From Desulfotignum sp. (GTDB taxonomy: Bacteria > Desulfobacterota > Desulfobacteria > Desulfobacterales > Desulfobacteraceae), in NCBI GenBank assembly GCA_018399285.1, contig JAGYOW010000001.1, forward strand, positions 62,001 to 126,000: a DNA stretch of 64,000 nucleotides. The letters run 5' to 3'. Below are positions 10,580 through 30,862 of the stretch, piece after piece (within the stretch, counting starts at the first letter, position 1; each line of letters starts with the position of its first letter). Under the pieces are notes generated by a model. It did not search any database. It was not told the origin of the DNA and worked only from the letters and a program-made list of their open reading frames with translations. The translations under genes were made by a program, and so were the position numbers.

Positions 10580-11576
10580 GGGGATTTTTCTGCTGCCAGT
10601 GCCAGGCGTCGGCACACATGTCATCTAAGGTTCGAGTCGCCTTCCACCCCAGTTCTTTTTCGGCTTTGCCGGGGTCTGCCCAGCAGGCTGCGATATCCCC
10701 GGGCCGCCGGGGATCTGTGTCATAGGGGATGGGGCGGCCGCAGGCCCGTTCAAATCCCTGGATCATTTCCAGGACCGAATATCCTTTTCCCGTGCCCAGG
10801 TTGTAGGTGAGAACACCGGGGGCGGCCAGCAGTCCGGGCAGGGTTTTGACATGGCCTTCCGCCAGATCACACACATGAATGTAATCCCGGACCCCGGTGC
10901 CGTCCGGGGTCGGGTAATCATTGCCGAACACCCGGACCCGGTCCAGGGAACCAATGGCCACCCGGGCGATATAAGGCACCAGATTGTTGGGAATTCCCCG
11001 GGGGTCTTCTCCGATCAGACCGGTGGGATGGGCCCCCACCGGATTGAAATACCGGAGCCGGGCAATATGCCATGCAGGATCAGATACAAACACATCCTCA
11101 AGAATCTGCTCGATCATTAATTTGGTCCGGCCGTAGGGGTTGGTGACAGACAACGGAAACGTTTCCGTGATGGGCAGGGTGTCGGGATCTCCATATACGG
11201 TGGCGGAAGAGGAAAAAATAATTTTTTTGACGTCTGATTCAGCCATGACCGACAACAGGTTTAAGGTGCCGGTGATATTGTTGTGAAAATAGGTCAACGG
11301 CATGGCGGTGGATTCCCCCACGGCTTTGAGCCCGGCAAAATGAATCACCGCATCGGGCCGGGACCGATCAAAGACCCGGCTGATCGCGTCTTTGTCCAGC
11401 AGATCCCTGTTAAAGAAATCCACGGATTTGCCGGTGATCTGCTCCACCCGGGTTAAGGAGGCTTCCGTGCTGTTGCACAGATTGTCCACCACCACCACAT
11501 CCATGTTCTGTTCGAGAAGGGCCACGCAGGTATGGCTGCCGATATAGCCGGCACCACCGGTCACAAGTATTTTCAT
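10560..11576 (-). CDS. galE: UDP-glucose 4-epimerase
   Basis: Extended short-chain dehydrogenase of 338 aa that interconverts UDP-glucose and UDP-galactose, using bound NAD, for surface sugars. The Rossmann motif TGGAGYIGSH is at residues 6-15, the catalytic Ser is in SSSATVYGD, YGRTK gives the Tyr-x3-Lys pair, and GVRDYIHV and the substrate-binding tail are typical of GalE. The ATG at 11576 is chosen because AAGGAC lies just upstream and Rossmann sequence begins at once. It overlaps the upstream gene by 4 bases (ATGA) and the downstream ATP-grasp gene by 20. Confidence 0.95.
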   Translation of the reverse strand: MKILVTGGAGYIGSHTCVALLEQNMDVVVVDNLCNSTEASLTRVEQITGKSVDFFNRDLLDKDAISRVFDRSRPDAVIHFAGLKAVGESTAMPLTYFHNNITGTLNLLSVMAESDVKKIIFSSSATVYGDPDTLPITETFPLSVTNPYGRTKLMIEQILEDVFVSDPAWHIARLRYFNPVGAHPTGLIGEDPRGIPNNLVPYIARVAIGSLDRVRVFGNDYPTPDGTGVRDYIHVCDLAEGHVKTLPGLLAAPGVLTYNLGTGKGYSVLEMIQGFERACGRPIPYDTDPRRPGDIAACWADPGKAEKELGWKATRTLDDMCADAWHWQQKNPHGYDRS

Positions 11577-12637
11577 GGTCTGTCCTTGTAAGGTTTGAGT
11601 ATTCGTGTCTGTTGCCGGGCGGTTCGGTTGAACAGGTCCCGGCATCGGGTGCAGTTTACACACAAGTGATTGCACCCGGCAAGGGTGTTTAAAAAATCAG
11701 GTCCCAGCTGTTTGTTGTCCACATGATAAAAATCGGCTAAAAACCGGGTGGCATCCATCAATTCCAGCAGGTTGCCGTCAAATGATTTGCGGATGTATGC
11801 ATTGACGGCCTGAATTAAAAAGCGTGATCCCAGAGTTCGGCCGCTGATTTTGACCGTGTCGGCAAGCCGGGCATACGCGGTCAGATCTTCGGGCCGGATG
11901 AACGGACTGCTGAAAAAAAAATGTGGGTGACGATGAAAAAAATCATGACACCCATGCACCTGACTGATCCGGTGGGTCATCTCCGGGACCAGTCTGGTAT
12001 TGGACAAAGACACCTGGGCATCATGGGTGAGTTTGAACGGGCAGTGGCTCAGGCACCCTTCATTGGCCATCAGTTCAATGCCCACATCCGGAAAGGCTTG
12101 CCGGATGGCGGACACCATTTTTTCCAAGCCGTTGAAATCCCGGTTCAATGATCGGTCTAAGATCAGTTTTTCAGGCATTTTAAAACAGGTTTCCCGGATG
12201 GCTGTCAGCATGGAAAATGCTTTGGGGGCATTGTCCAGCATCATGTTGATTCCGGGCACGGCTTCCAGGGATTTCACCTGTTTGTGCCCGGTTTTTGACA
12301 GGGCCGTGAGCAGATACATATCCGAGAACACGATGCCGCTGAGGCCGCCAGTCGAATCCAGGGCCTGGAGCCGGTCCAGTATCCGGTTCAGAAACCGGGT
12401 GTCAAAATACCGGTCCGGGGTGATAAAGCGGGTGTTGAAAAGACAATAGGTTTTGATTTTACCCAGGCGGGGCAGATGTTTTTGTAAAAAATGCAAGTCC
12501 AAAGATCCGAACTGAACCCGGGCATCGAGTGCCGGACCGTCTGGCAACGCAAAATACACAGATGACAGTAACGATTTGTTTTCAACCAGAAAATCGATAT
12601 AGGGGTCATCCGCAATAAAAGGAACGGACAATTTCAT
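11573..12637 (-). CDS. U32-peptidase-like protein with a possible iron-sulfur site
   Basis: Protein of 354 aa resembling the U32 family as used by UbiU/UbiV-type iron-sulfur proteins. The motif ELMANEGCLSHCPFKLTHD (about residues 186-204) matches the U32 hallmark NEGCxxxCPF. Near the C-terminus GCNHLCVNCTRCRD supplies four more Cys. U32 relatives bind a 4Fe-4S cluster and take part in RNA or ubiquinone hydroxylation; the name peptidase is mostly historical. What this one modifies is unknown. Start at 12637, with no clear Shine-Dalgarno sequence. It heads the overlapping group with galE and the ATP-grasp gene. Confidence 0.6.
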   Translation of the reverse strand: MKLSVPFIADDPYIDFLVENKSLLSSVYFALPDGPALDARVQFGSLDLHFLQKHLPRLGKIKTYCLFNTRFITPDRYFDTRFLNRILDRLQALDSTGGLSGIVFSDMYLLTALSKTGHKQVKSLEAVPGINMMLDNAPKAFSMLTAIRETCFKMPEKLILDRSLNRDFNGLEKMVSAIRQAFPDVGIELMANEGCLSHCPFKLTHDAQVSLSNTRLVPEMTHRISQVHGCHDFFHRHPHFFFSSPFIRPEDLTAYARLADTVKISGRTLGSRFLIQAVNAYIRKSFDGNLLELMDATRFLADFYHVDNKQLGPDFLNTLAGCNHLCVNCTRCRDLFNRTARQQTRILKPYKDRP

Positions 12638-12809
12638 AAATATATGTTATATAGAATTTTTCAAATATGGCAACGCGTGAATACCACTTTGATGACCGGA
12701 TGATAAAAAAAGGCTGCCTGACATTGACAGGCCATGGGACGGTGATTAAACTATGGGTCATTCAGGCGGGCACATCCTGAATTCAATAAACCATAAGGAG
12801 AGTTTACCA

Positions 12810-13118
12810 ATGATTGAATTGACAGATCCTGCAAAGGAGCAGATCGACAACTACTTTCAGGGGAAAGAACCGACCCCGATTCGTATTTTTCTGAATTCCG
12901 GCGGCTGAGGGGGACCCTCCCTGGCCATGGCTCTGGATGAGCCTAAAAATTCAGATGACAGTTTTGAAGTAAAAGGTCACAAATTTGTTGTGGACAAAGA
13001 ATTCATGCAAAAAGCGGAACAGATTAAAATCGATTTCACGGGAATGGGATTTCATCTGGATTCCAATATGGATCTCGGCGCACCGGATTGTGGCGGATGC
13101 GGCGGATCCTGCGGCTGA
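12810..13118 (+). CDS. HesB/IscA-like selenoprotein, UGA codon 33 read as selenocysteine
   Basis: Reading from the ATG at 12810 (AAGGAG at 12795-12800) gives 102 aa with one in-frame TGA at 12906-12908. The flanks are FLNSGG before it and GGPSLAMALDE after it. The same frame runs on to TGA 13116-13118 and ends with Cys94, Cys97 and Cys101. This matches the HesB-like selenoproteins known from deltaproteobacteria, in which selenocysteine replaces the first cluster-ligand Cys of the IscA fold. A stem-loop lies just after the UGA, SelB is encoded at 28949-30862, and a terminator follows. The role is unproven, perhaps iron-sulfur or redox chemistry. Translation from 12927 alone would lose a third of the domain. 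Confidence 0.9.
12909..12943 (+). promoter_or_regulatory. Candidate bacterial SECIS element
   Basis: Directly after the UGA at 12906-12908 lies a hairpin GGCTC (12929-12933), loop TGGAT (12934-12938), GAGCC (12939-12943). The loop begins 25 bases after the UGA and contains GG. Bacterial SECIS hairpins sit within about 40 bases 3' of UGA, inside the coding region, with G in the apical loop for SelB contact. The GC-rich stretch 12909-12926 could add a lower stem. Placement and loop fit; the pairing has not been folded computationally. Confidence 0.55.
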
Positions 13119-13141: not shown

Positions 13142-13173
13142 AAAGGTGTGCTGTAAAAAGCGCACCTTTTTTT
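13142..13173. terminator. Bidirectional rho-independent terminator
   Basis: Stem AAAGGTGTGC (13142-13151) and GCGCACCTTT (13160-13169) with one G-U pair and an 8-base loop. It is followed by T residues on the plus strand and, because of the A run before the stem, by T residues on the minus strand too. It sits between the convergent selenoprotein gene and the thiamine pyrophosphokinase gene. Confidence 0.85.
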
Positions 13174-13175
13174 AT

Positions 13176-13841
13176 TCAATCCATGGACCGGATCACCAGA
13201 AGCGTGCCGGACTTGATGGAAATCTGTGCCGCGGATTCTGAAAAAAAATTGCTGATGCCCAGGGTGGTGCCTATTTTCAATGTCTGATCCCGGAGCGGAT
13301 AGGACAGGCCCGTGAGGGTGACCCCGGTGACCGTGGCGGTCAAAGGGATGAGCGACACCAGATCCCCGGGATTTCCGGACAGTTCCAATCGGTCTTTCAC
13401 CAGGCAGATCTCATTGTGCGCATCCATGATTCTGACACAGATACCGGCATCTGCCAGGGGAACCAGCAGCAGGATATTGGCCAGTGTATGATCCAGCCGG
13501 GTACCGGTGGCAGCCAGCATGGTGATATGGGTGGCACCCCGGTTTTTGGCATAATCCAGGCACAATTCCATATCGGTTCTGTTTTTCCGGCGGGGATAAG
13601 GTTGGACCGGGACCTTGTTTTTTTTGAAAAAGTTCAGTGTGTCCGGGTCAATGGAGTCCAGATCCCCGACGATCACATGGGGCAGGACTCCGTTTTTTTT
13701 CAGATGTCCGGCGCCGCTGTCCGCAGCAATAATCAGATCCGCGGTTTTCAGAAGACGGTGGATGTGCCGGTGCCAGGTTCGGGTCCGGGCCGGATTCAGG
13801 CGGCCCCCGGCGATGACAATGCAGTTCATGAAGGTGTTCAT
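13176..13841 (-). CDS. Thiamine pyrophosphokinase
   Basis: Protein of 221 aa that transfers pyrophosphate from ATP to thiamine, giving thiamine diphosphate. Family blocks are IAADSGAGHL near residue 38, VIVGDLDSID near residue 56, YPRRKNRTDMELCLDYA and TGTRLDHTLANILLL. The C-terminal beta domain (GDLVSLIPL and later) forms the thiamine-binding half. Length is normal for bacterial TPK. The product would serve the TPP-dependent 2-oxoacid oxidoreductase at 36-38 kb among others. It is divergent from lptF, 80 bases apart. Confidence 0.9.
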   Translation of the reverse strand: MNTFMNCIVIAGGRLNPARTRTWHRHIHRLLKTADLIIAADSGAGHLKKNGVLPHVIVGDLDSIDPDTLNFFKKNKVPVQPYPRRKNRTDMELCLDYAKNRGATHITMLAATGTRLDHTLANILLLVPLADAGICVRIMDAHNEICLVKDRLELSGNPGDLVSLIPLTATVTGVTLTGLSYPLRDQTLKIGTTLGISNFFSESAAQISIKSGTLLVIRSMD

Positions 13842-16190: not shown

Positions 16191-17495
16191 ATGATCTGGT
16201 TTTATCACATTCTGGTTATTACGGGATTCATACTGGTGCTGCCTTTTTTGCCGATTGTGTGGCTGGTGTCGAAAAAACGTCGGACCAATCTGATGCAGCG
16301 CCTGGGGCTTTGTACCGGCATAAAAAAACAGACGGGTCCCTGCAAACCGGTCTGGATTCACGCCCTTTCCGTGGGGGAAGTCAAATCCGCCCTGCCGCTG
16401 GTTATGGCGGTCCATGATCATTTTCCACAGACTCCGATCGTTTTTACGGCATCCACCCGGACCGGTTATGACACGGCCCGCAGCCTGTTCTGCCGGGCAG
16501 ATTCTCCCCTGGTTTCCCAACTTGCGTATTTTCCCTTTGATCTGCCCTGGGCCGTTGCAAGGGTCCAAAAAAAGATTGATCCGGCATGGGTCTGTCTGGT
16601 GGAAACCGACCTGTGGCCGGGATTTCTTCATGCCATGGACCGGAAACAAATTCCTGTGGTTCTGGTGAATGCCAGGCTGTCACGCCGGTCCTTTCACGGG
16701 TACCGCCGGCTGGGACCGGCCGCTTTTTCCAGACTGACCCATGGCGGTGCAGACCCGCCGTGATCTGGAACGGTTTGCTTCTTATCAGATAAAAAACGGA
16801 GGAGCCGGTTGACCCTGGCCGGGAACATCAAATTTGATTATCCGCTGAAAACCATGACCGACACAGAGAAAAATGAGCTAAAAAGCTGGTTTCACATGGA
16901 TGACACCCAACCATTGTGGGTGGCCGGATCCACCCATCCCAAAGAAGAATCCATGGTGTGGGAAGTTTTTCATCAGGTGCGCCGGCAGGTGCCGGACCTG
17001 AAACTGTTGATCGCGCCCAGGGATCCGGGCCGGTGCAAACAGGTGGCCCGGGATCTGGCAAAAAAAGGAGGGGAATCAATATTGCTTTCCACCACCCGAG
17101 ACAACCCCAAAGATGCACCGGTGATGCTTCTGGACTGTTTAGGCGTGCTGGCAAAGGCTTATGCCGTGTGTGATGCCGCCTTTATCGGCGGGTCTTTAGT
17201 GCCGTGCGGAGGCCATAATCCACTGGAACCGGCCATGTTCAAAAAACCGATATTGTTCGGCCCGCACATGGAAGATTTTGCCGAAGTGGCAGATCTGCTG
17301 CTGGCCCGGGCAGGTGCCTGTCAGGTGAATGATGCAGACGCTCTGGCCGATACCCTGGCTGATCTGCAGGCGTGTCCGGAACGTGCCGCGCAAATGGGAC
17401 ACCTGGCATTTGGCGTGTTGGAAGAAAACGCCGGTGCAGTGGACCGAACCTTGGCAATGCTGTCATCACTGAAGACCGGGGGAAAATGTGTTTAA
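16191..17495 (+). pseudogene. waaA: Kdo/Kdo8N transferase WaaA (KdtA) with two compensating frameshifts
   Basis: Inner-membrane transferase that adds Kdo-type sugar to lipid IVA. The N-terminal part (GT30) has a membrane anchor, then VWIHALSVGEVKSALPL and LVETDLWPGFL. The frame ends at TGA 16761-16763. A second frame from about 16741 continues the family sequence (AVQTRRDLERFASYQIKNGG) to TGA 16810-16812. The original frame resumes at 16809 with LTLAGNIKFDYP and the C-terminal half (GGSLVPCGGHNPLEPAMF). Two opposite indels about 65 bases apart explain this. Error is likely because waaA is normally needed. Given kdnAB nearby, the donor may be CMP-8-amino-Kdo. Confidence 0.85.
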
Positions 17496-28948: not shown

Positions 28949-30862
28949 TTATGATTTCCTTCTCAGCTGCCGGGTGTCTCCCACCCGGATGGTCAGGTGA
29001 ATGGCATCAAAATACTCGATCAAAGGGATGACATATTTGCGGGAAATGCCGGTCATGTCTTTGAACTCCGGGGTGGTGATGGATTCGTTTTTCTTCAGAA
29101 ATGTCACCAGCTCCGCTTCCAGCCGGGCCATCACTTGTGCATCAAAGTACAGGTCATCTTTTGTTTTGATGATCTGTTTTTCATCGATCAGCATCTGAAG
29201 CACATCCATGGCGGTTTTTTTGTCCAGATCCAGGTCCTGACACACGGTCCGGAAAAAAGGCGGGGTCAGGCCGGCGGATCGGTAGATGCTTAGAATATCT
29301 TCTTTGATCTGGTGCTGATCCACCTGCAATGCCACTTTAAAATCCGCCAGTTTCACCAGATTTTTGTCCTGGATGACCGCATTTTCTTTTTCAAGACGGG
29401 AAAACAGGATGTTGAAAAATCTGGGATCCTTGATGTAGCGGAACTTGGATTTCAGCTCCTGGGTGGGCATGCCTTCCTTTAATGGATTGGCGGTATGGTA
29501 GTGCTGAATTTTTTCCAGCACCTTTTTTTTGAAGTCATCAAAAAACGCCCCGCTGACAAATGTCTGTTTTTCCTTGTCCGTCTGGATGACCGCCTGCTGG
29601 GCCAGCAGTTTCTGAAGGGTGGTAGACAGTTTTTTGTCAGACAGGTTGGTCATGATCCGCAGATCATTGAAATTCAAACCCTTGTATCCGTTCAAAGACA
29701 GAAAAAACAGAATGGTCTGCTCAGGATCATCTGCTGCCAGACCGGTCAGGCCTTGTATGACGGCGGCATCCATGTGCCGGTATTTTCTGGCCACAGGATT
29801 GAGAATAACCCCGCCGCCAATGGTTTTGACGGGTGAATAACTCCGGATCACATACCGGTCATCCTTGATGCAGCACACCGGAGATTCCAGCCGGAACTGC
29901 ACCAGCGCGTCCTCGCCGGGCAGCAGTTCATCTCGGTCAAGCAGGACCATATATCCTAAAATTTCACTGGTGCCGGAGTGGAACCGGACCCGGGTCCGGA
30001 CTTTGGCCGGTTTGGCATTGGATTTCAGATAATGAAATCCGGCATCCACCATATAGCTTTCGATCAGAGTGTCCGGGGTAGAAAGTATATCGCCCCGGTC
30101 GACCGATTCCTTGTCCAGTCCCTGGAAATTGATGGCCGTGCGCGTGCCGGGGCCGGCTTCATTCACGCTGCTGGAATGCACCTGAATTCCCCGGACCTTG
30201 GAGATGATCCGTTTGGGATAAACCATGATGTCTTCCCCCACCCGGATATGGCCCGAGGTCAGGGTACCGGTGATCACGGTGCCGAATCCTTTCATGCTGA
30301 ACACCCGGTCCACGGGCAGCCGGAAAATGGAGGAAAATCTGCGTTCCGGCAGCTGCCGGCAGATTTTTTCCAGGGCCGCCAGAAAATCATCCAACCCCTG
30401 ACCCGTGGCCGAAGAAACGGGAATGACGGGCTGGTCTTCCAGAAACGTGCCGTCCACAAAATCATGAATATCTTCCAGGGCCAGCTCCAGCAGATCCTCA
30501 TCCACCAGATCGGTCTTGGTCAATGCGATCAGCCCGTGTTCAATGCCCATGAGGTGACAGATCTCCATGTGCTCCCGGGTCTGGGGCATCACGCCTTCGT
30601 CCGCCGCAATGACCATGGTGACCACATCGATCCCGGAAGACCCGGCCACCATATTTTTCACGAATTTTTCATGGCCGGGCATGTCCACAATCCCGATATG
30701 GGTGCCCCCGGGCAAATCCAGAAAGGCAAACCCAAGTTCAATGGTGATGCCCCGCTGTTTTTCTTCTTTGAGACGGTCGGTTTCAATGCCGGTGAGTGCT
30801 TTGACCAGGCTGGTCTTGCCGTGATCGATGTGGCCGGCTGTGCCGAGTATGATGTTTTCCAC
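28949..30862 (-). CDS. selB: Selenocysteine-specific translation elongation factor SelB
   Basis: GTPase of 637 aa that delivers selenocysteinyl-tRNA to UGA codons. The GTPase domain (1-170) has [20 protein letters not shown] and DMPGHEKF. Beta-barrel domains follow, and the C-terminal third is a series of winged helices (from about residue 370) that bind the SECIS hairpin. Presence of SelB directly supports reading the UGA in the HesB-like gene at 12810. selA, selC and selD are not in the window. A small membrane protein gene lies 5 bases upstream. Confidence 0.95.

Follow-up and report, generated by a model that had tools for sequence, protein, structure and literature searches.

The window analysed in this study, a stretch of 64 kb, contains on its plus strand a short reading frame that starts with the ATG at 12810-12812, finishes with the TGA at 13116-13118 and has no stop inside it other than one TGA at codon 33, which lies between the residues SGG and GGPS. 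The sequence confirms what the preliminary description had reported of this frame, including the AAGGAG upstream of the start and the 102-aa product with Cys94, Cys97 and Cys101. The product is MIEL...NSGG-U-GGPSLAMALDEP...CGGCGGSCG, in which U is selenocysteine (Sec). The features of the locus, together with the gene of the Sec-specific elongation factor, are the following.

11573-12637, minus strand: upstream neighbor, coding for a 354-aa protein, opposite in strand to the Sec gene
12724-12752, plus strand: promoter-like site (TTGACA, 17 nt, TAAACT) from a consensus scan
12795-12800, plus strand: ribosome-binding site AAGGAG in the sequence, 9 nt 5' of the ATG
12810-13118, plus strand: gene of the IscA/HesB-type Sec protein, 102 aa, with matches to NF038090 and PF01521 and the same TGA in 50 of 50 relatives
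12906-12908, plus strand: in-frame TGA of codon 33 (Sec33), which the profile alignment places opposite the first conserved cysteine of IscA
12929-12943, plus strand: likely SECIS hairpin GGCUC-UGGAU-GAGCC, fold of -8.8 kcal/mol, with near-frozen synonymous sites in the Sec copies
13089-13112, plus strand: C-terminal cysteine tail, with Cys94 at 13089-13091, Cys97 at 13098-13100 and Cys101 at 13110-13112
13145-13173, plus strand: intrinsic terminator, formed by a hairpin at 13145-13166 and a T run
13176-13841, opposite strand to the Sec gene: downstream neighbor, thiamin pyrophosphokinase
28958-30853, minus strand: selB, Sec-specific elongation factor (TIGR00475, 345.6 bits, cut-off 242.25)

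The promoter-like site is weak, as the scan gave 2 such sites on both strands against 1.3 expected. The terminator-like stretch is absent from the output of the terminator pattern scan, and 62 nt at this place fold at -23.3 kcal/mol (z of -8.4). Since both neighbors lie on the other strand and the Sec gene has its own terminator-like hairpin, it is probably transcribed alone. The 354-aa product of the upstream neighbor has no match in Pfam or NCBIfam; at 26 loci its apparent relatives, recognised by eye, lie upstream of the Sec gene in the opposite orientation.

Under translation table 11 alone, the TGA at codon 33 is a stop, and the only in-frame ORF that is left is a piece of 63 aa at 12927-13118. 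The locus would then represent a 32-aa peptide, a pseudogene or a sequencing error, a reading that we consider next to impossible and have rejected in view of the comparisons with related copies. The nearest relatives belong to Desulfotignum and other Desulfobacteraceae (L003, Desulfotignum sp., is 99% identical), which makes a Desulfotignum-like sulfate reducer the very likely source of the window. The TGA is shared by all 50 relatives from the genome scan, Desulfospira joergensenii DSM 10085 (L020) among them, and extends down to copies with 43-47% identity (L046-L052), mostly from Syntrophaceae/Smithellaceae or deltaproteobacteria. In a wider set, column 33 is TGA in 98 distinct copies and Cys in 44 (38 TGC and 6 TGT), with no other residue; these were hand-chosen (close relatives, best loci, and TGA-free copies fetched on purpose), so that 98:44 does not represent a frequency. 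This set comes from a profile search with 163 matches, from which one below 40 bits was removed; the 160 that were counted correspond to 142 distinct DNA sequences, and two copies that fall outside the counting motif were assigned by eye (L164 as Cys, L080 as Sec). Eight further stretches were considered, seven of which could be read at column 33, with 1 Sec and 6 Cys, one of the latter (L209) being the same gene as L156; no motif was found in the eighth stretch, L211. The comparison of homologues at this column, which the preliminary description had proposed as a check, thus gave Sec or Cys in every copy read and neither a stop nor an unrelated residue.

Coding constraint also continues after the TGA. 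Compared with 30 close relatives, pN/pS is 0.119 before and 0.142 after this codon, and compared with 95 Sec copies it is 0.41 before and 0.32 after, all these values being simple counts in which multiple hits are uncorrected.

The SECIS candidate, GGCUC-UGGAY-GAGCC with the loop UGGAY, begins 20 nt after the UGA, and it carries a G in the small apical loop of a stem-loop 3' of the UGA, the trait described as common to bacterial SECIS elements (PMC1088965). Covariation was set aside as evidence for this element, since this hairpin shows very little variation and the encoded protein partly dictates its codons, and synonymous codon use was chosen instead. In the Sec copies, Ala+8 is GCT in 98 of 98, Leu+9 is CTG in 98 of 98 and Glu+11 is GAG in 97 of 98. 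The same columns of the Cys copies have GCT in 18 of 43, CTG in 14 of 44 and GAG in 17 of 28, and elsewhere in the same Sec genes these codons account for 89 of 506 Ala, 173 of 665 Leu and 152 of 518 Glu, respectively. At the adjacent Gly+2 and Pro+3, the Sec copies use all four codons. The 98 Sec copies include the gene of the window and are kin, which makes them non-independent draws, but they span the phylum. With G-U accepted as a standard pair, all five stem positions are paired in 96 of 98 Sec copies, as against 0 of 44 Cys copies; this last count results in part from other amino acids at +12, often Lys, and the codon counts are the cleaner test. One Cys copy, from genome G206 (L205), keeps the whole stem with one loop change (UAGAU for UGGAU); selA was not found in this genome, and its hairpin is likely a fossil SECIS that followed a Sec-to-Cys change. 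A figure legend of PMC1794560 already describes a SECIS remnant in a HesB-like gene of Desulfitobacterium hafniense.

The genome of the organism possesses the full Sec machinery: tRNA-Sec was found with 76.9 bits, and selA, selB and selD are also over their cut-offs. The presence of SelB in the same window, as first described, is borne out by the TIGR00475 match listed above. The selD gene (L099, C167:38527-39453) likewise has one in-frame TGA, and SelD is among the selenoprotein families listed in PMC1794560. At L203:4546-5685 (contig C140 of the same genome), the tRNA-Sec gene precedes a NifU/IscU-like gene of the same orientation by about 620 nt. In 50 genomes picked for comparison, selA was found in 49, that is, in 30 of 30 with a TGA copy, in 4 of 5 with TGA-free copies only and in 15 of 15 with no match, which makes it a weak test; the sole genome in which it was not found is G206, with its Cys copy. 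Genomes G416 (74% complete) and G424 (95%) have selA, and only TGA-free copies were found in them.

The TGA shared by the relatives, the Sec/Cys-only column of the wider set, the pN/pS values, the near-frozen hairpin codons and the Sec machinery all stand against an ordinary stop. As judged by sequence comparison, the decoding of the UGA at 12906-12908, as Sec and under selection, is strongly supported, and it is very likely that the window encodes a small IscA-like protein of the iron-sulfur type that carries selenocysteine where the standard code would have a stop. A mechanical scan of the window gave 25 places with an in-frame TGA, the Sec gene included; those other than the Sec gene and position 16761 were judged by their flanking letters alone. 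At 16191-17495 on the plus strand, a frame that we take to be waaA/KdtA-like is interrupted by the TGA at 16761, and the surrounding residues give the impression of a disturbed frame and not of a Sec codon.

For the assignment to a family, profile matches of the Sec protein were computed with Sec given as Cys. The protein matches NCBIfam NF038090, "IscA_HesB_Se", with 112.7 bits over residues 1-96 (cut-off 85), and Pfam PF01521 with 33.4 bits (cut-off 26.3). It resembles NF038090 in the match to the whole model, in its Cys-rich tail and at the column of codon 33, where the members read have either Sec or Cys, and no feature was found that would distinguish it from an ordinary member. Membership in TIGR01911, HesB_rel_seleno, the model given for HesB-like selenoproteins in two reviews (PMC13188914, PMC9312934), was rejected, as the protein reaches 30.2 bits against a cut-off of 66.35; the two are related in sequence, and the UGGP of the protein agrees with the motif UxGP listed in PMC13188914, but by score TIGR01911 is another subfamily.

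The Sec gene adds a new member to a selenoprotein family whose occurrence in deltaproteobacteria, stated in the preliminary description, has been in print since 2006-2007. A 2006 survey listed 11 HesB-like selenoproteins, whose hosts include Syntrophobacter, Desulfovibrio and Geobacter (Zhang et al. 2006, PMC1794560). In PMC1914089, a TGA cluster of the HesB family that contains DVU_1382 of Desulfovibrio vulgaris was kept apart from the methanococcal one. The in-frame TGA is common to these proteins and to ours, which comes from another, Desulfotignum-like genome and is likened to them by their description. Since the family is in print, to call the gene "hidden" was an overstatement. As to the expectation of the preliminary description that automatic annotation would give only a 63-aa piece or a pseudogene, NCBI has the dedicated model NF038090. 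The words HesB and IscA are absent from the main text of two genome papers on related sulfate reducers (PMC2702500, PMC5109826) and of a paper on Sec and pyrrolysine in marine deltaproteobacteria (PMC8318568), and among the papers listed from the open-licence literature none was recognised by title as biochemistry of the family. For the methanococcal HesB-like selenoprotein, which was identified with the help of mutagenesis and Se-75 labelling, PMC11097638 describes the function as not clear; a 2026 review says the same of the function of most selenoproteins (PMC13188914).

The structure predicted by AlphaFold2 from an alignment of 82 rows (pLDDT 84.8, pTM 0.73) has its best PDB matches in IscA (1r94, E of 4.0e-7) and in IscA with a [2Fe-2S] cluster (1x0g, E of 5.9e-7), and six of the first 10 matches are IscA or SufA. 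DsrR, which presumably lacks the ligand cysteines, appears at rank 8, and for this reason the IscA fold alone is no proof of a carrier. Thirteen residues are invariant in the 82 rows (M1, A8, R25, U/C33, G35, L38, A41, L42, D43, D49, G80, F81 and C94), and G32, P36, D75, S85, C97 and C101 are conserved in at least 90% of them.

A-type carriers possess three Cys ligands, the last two of them as CxC. The Sec protein is like IscA, SufA and ErpA in its predicted fold, in the column of the first cysteine and in a PF01521 score over the cut-off, but it differs from them in having Sec for the first Cys and a tail of the form CxxCx3C (Sec33, then Cys94-x2-Cys97-x3-Cys101) instead of CxC, and it scores far below the cut-offs of the IscA, SufA and ErpA models. 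The tail is predicted to be disordered, with a pLDDT below 50 for residues 91-100. The number of its cysteines is maintained: in the 97 Sec copies that could be read (1 further copy was unreadable), 80 have three and 17 have four, with varying spacing, and all 44 Cys copies have at least three. Before the tail region, 82 of the 98 Sec copies have no Cys and 16 have one. One Sec plus at least three tail Cys would suffice to ligate a cluster within one chain, which is suggestive but no proof, and we infer that Sec33 and the tail cysteines may form a redox or Fe-S site. The description of a HesB/IscA-like selenoprotein with Sec at the first ligand column is supported by the homologues, the conservation of the SECIS and the machinery.

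The same residues could serve a thiol/selenol redox or repair enzyme built on the IscA fold, in which Sec33 would attack the substrate and a tail Cys would resolve the selenenyl-sulfide, with no cluster involved. Sec is usually catalytic, and the three or more tail Cys of all readable copies could fulfill the resolving role; redox roles are moreover thought likely for the majority of uncharacterised selenoproteins, according to PMC13188914. Against this stand the alignment of Sec33 with the first conserved Cys of IscA, the conservation of the tail Cys as a set of at least three rather than as one resolving Cys, and the absence from the Sec protein of a CxxU or UxxC motif. We regard such an enzyme as possible, though improbable.

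The organism also has a Cys paralogue (C117:6161-6475), 45% identical and with the sequence SGCGGPSL, directly behind the genes for a CCG/4Fe-4S protein and for an FlpD/MvhD-type protein. In some other Desulfobacteraceae, Cys copies are near Fe-S electron-transfer genes that are TmcB/HmcF/DsrK-like (L185), HdrA-like (L179, L189) or sulfhydrogenase-like (L189), all of these calls being under the curated NCBIfam cut-offs. A CCG/4Fe-4S-type neighbor occurs at 11 of 64 Cys-copy loci versus 1 of 100 Sec-copy loci, an HdrA-like one at 5 of the 64 and FlpD at 4, counts that are to be read with caution, since some of the Cys loci overlap and the flanks of many comprise no more than 300 nt. In L188 and in the tandem loci L196 and L197, inspection of the ORFs by eye showed no Hdr-type gene. 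A small ORF lies just downstream of the Cys copy at 29 of 64 loci (L195:6492-6986 is one); the one in the genome of our organism is ParE-like (PF24732, 21.7 bits, below the cut-off of 24.4), and the one in L189 has no family match. An epimerase-type gene is nearby on the opposite strand at 38 of 100 Sec-copy loci, with the same caution on flanks and overlap. Sec and Cys copies stand in tandem elsewhere in the phylum (L055, L056, L057, L064, L077, L081 and L082). This arrangement of genes suggests that the two kinds of copies may have divided roles rather than acting as a simple selenium backup.

These neighborhoods bear on another proposal, namely that the protein binds or senses metal, sulfide or selenium species, so that Sec33 and the tail would form a site for a soft metal ion or a chalcogenide and Fe-S would not be delivered. 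One Sec together with three or more Cys makes a soft set of ligands, the lifestyle is sulfide-rich as judged from relatives of the organism, and metal binding by Sec has been proposed for some other selenoproteins (PMC13188914). Nevertheless, no transporter or regulator was recognised next to the Sec gene within the window, and some Cys paralogues are beside Fe-S electron-transfer genes; we consider this proposal quite unlikely.

A role as a carrier would agree with the inventory of such proteins in the family. With PF01521, no classical A-type carrier was found in the genome of the organism (86.5% complete) or in 15 near-complete relatives. At E values of up to 1, the 15 family genomes gave 7 matches, the 2 over the cut-off being NF038090-family members and the other 5 having E values of 0.07-0.55; the only match in the genome of the organism is the Cys paralogue, with 21.5 bits, below the cut-off. 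Of 14 control genomes, 9 have PF01521 over the cut-off. The model missed most NF038090 copies in those genomes, and a divergent carrier could escape it, but a classical IscA, SufA or ErpA should not. The genome of the organism has four NifU_N/IscU-type matches, and SufBD was not found in it at its completeness of 86.5%. A 2009 survey reported that A-type carriers are absent from many Delta-Proteobacteria (PMC2682760); we suggest that this gap may have arisen in part from Sec genes read as stops and from the low similarity of the NF038090 family.

Bringing these observations together, we propose that a small selenoprotein of A-type (IscA/HesB-like) is encoded here by a gene that stands alone. 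The UGA at 12906-12908 would be read as Sec by SelB with Sec-tRNA, aided by the hairpin at 12929-12943, to yield the 102-aa protein, which would take the IscA fold and may act as a carrier of Fe-S (or iron). Sec33 would replace the first cysteine ligand, the flexible Cys-rich tail would supply the others, and the protein may stand in for the classical A-type carriers that are seemingly missing from this sulfate reducer; the Cys paralogue behind the Hdr/MvhD-type genes may do the same job for that enzyme group. A Fe-S (or iron) carrier with Sec33 as a ligand is, in our judgment, the best explanation and somewhat probable. In its favor we count the Sec/Cys-only column, the SECIS codons, the Sec machinery, the coding constraint, the IscA-like model, the tail Cys, the PF01521 results in the 15 relatives and in the organism's own genome, and the NifU/IscU-type scaffolds. 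Counted against it are the disordered tail, the varying Cys spacing, CxxCx3C in place of CxC, and the non-universal distribution of the NF038090 family, with no match in 11 of 86 genomes of the taxonomic family and 175 of 395 of the phylum. A disruption mutant of the distant methanococcal HesB-like selenoprotein, moreover, still fixed nitrogen, a result cited as unpublished in PMC11097638.

The distribution of the NF038090 family was determined in the taxonomic family of the source organism, where it is represented over the cut-off in 75 of 86 genomes. A copy with a single internal TGA is present in 73 of these 75 and both kinds are present in 31, while the copies of the other 2 are all TGA-free; where the TGA lies was read only for copies fetched as loci. 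Among the TGA-free copies of these genomes, 38 of 45 were read (20, 17 and the 1 of the organism's own genome), and all 38 have Cys (L164 by eye). The 11 genomes without a match include 2 of the 42 rated at least 90% complete and at most 5% contaminated, and also G473 (100% complete, 7% contaminated). In the phylum sample of 395 genomes, 168 are over the cut-off. The tree of 142 copies (105 columns, poorly resolved) needs at least 5 changes of Sec/Cys label, 4 of them forced by well-supported branches, and it gives no direction of change since it is unrooted.

A stronger version of the carrier proposal would make the Sec protein the main A-type Fe-S carrier of Desulfobacteraceae, with the reported lack of carriers being partly an artefact of UGA read as stop. 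We hold this version to be unlikely, the more so as 11 of the 86 family genomes are without a member, one of them rated 100% complete. If it were true, general Fe-S maturation in these sulfate reducers would proceed through a natural selenium-ligated cluster and would depend on the supply of selenium.

HesB-like proteins are among the commonest bacterial selenoprotein families, ranking sixth by number of organisms in a 2016 table, with 86 organisms and 90 proteins (PMC5029168). The Sec and Cys copies gathered here, the tail motif, the gene context and the SECIS signature make the idea of a selenium-ligated carrier directly testable. If the NF038090 family is indeed an Fe-S carrier, it would be a selenium-ligated one, tying the supply of iron-sulfur clusters to selenium in sulfate reducers.
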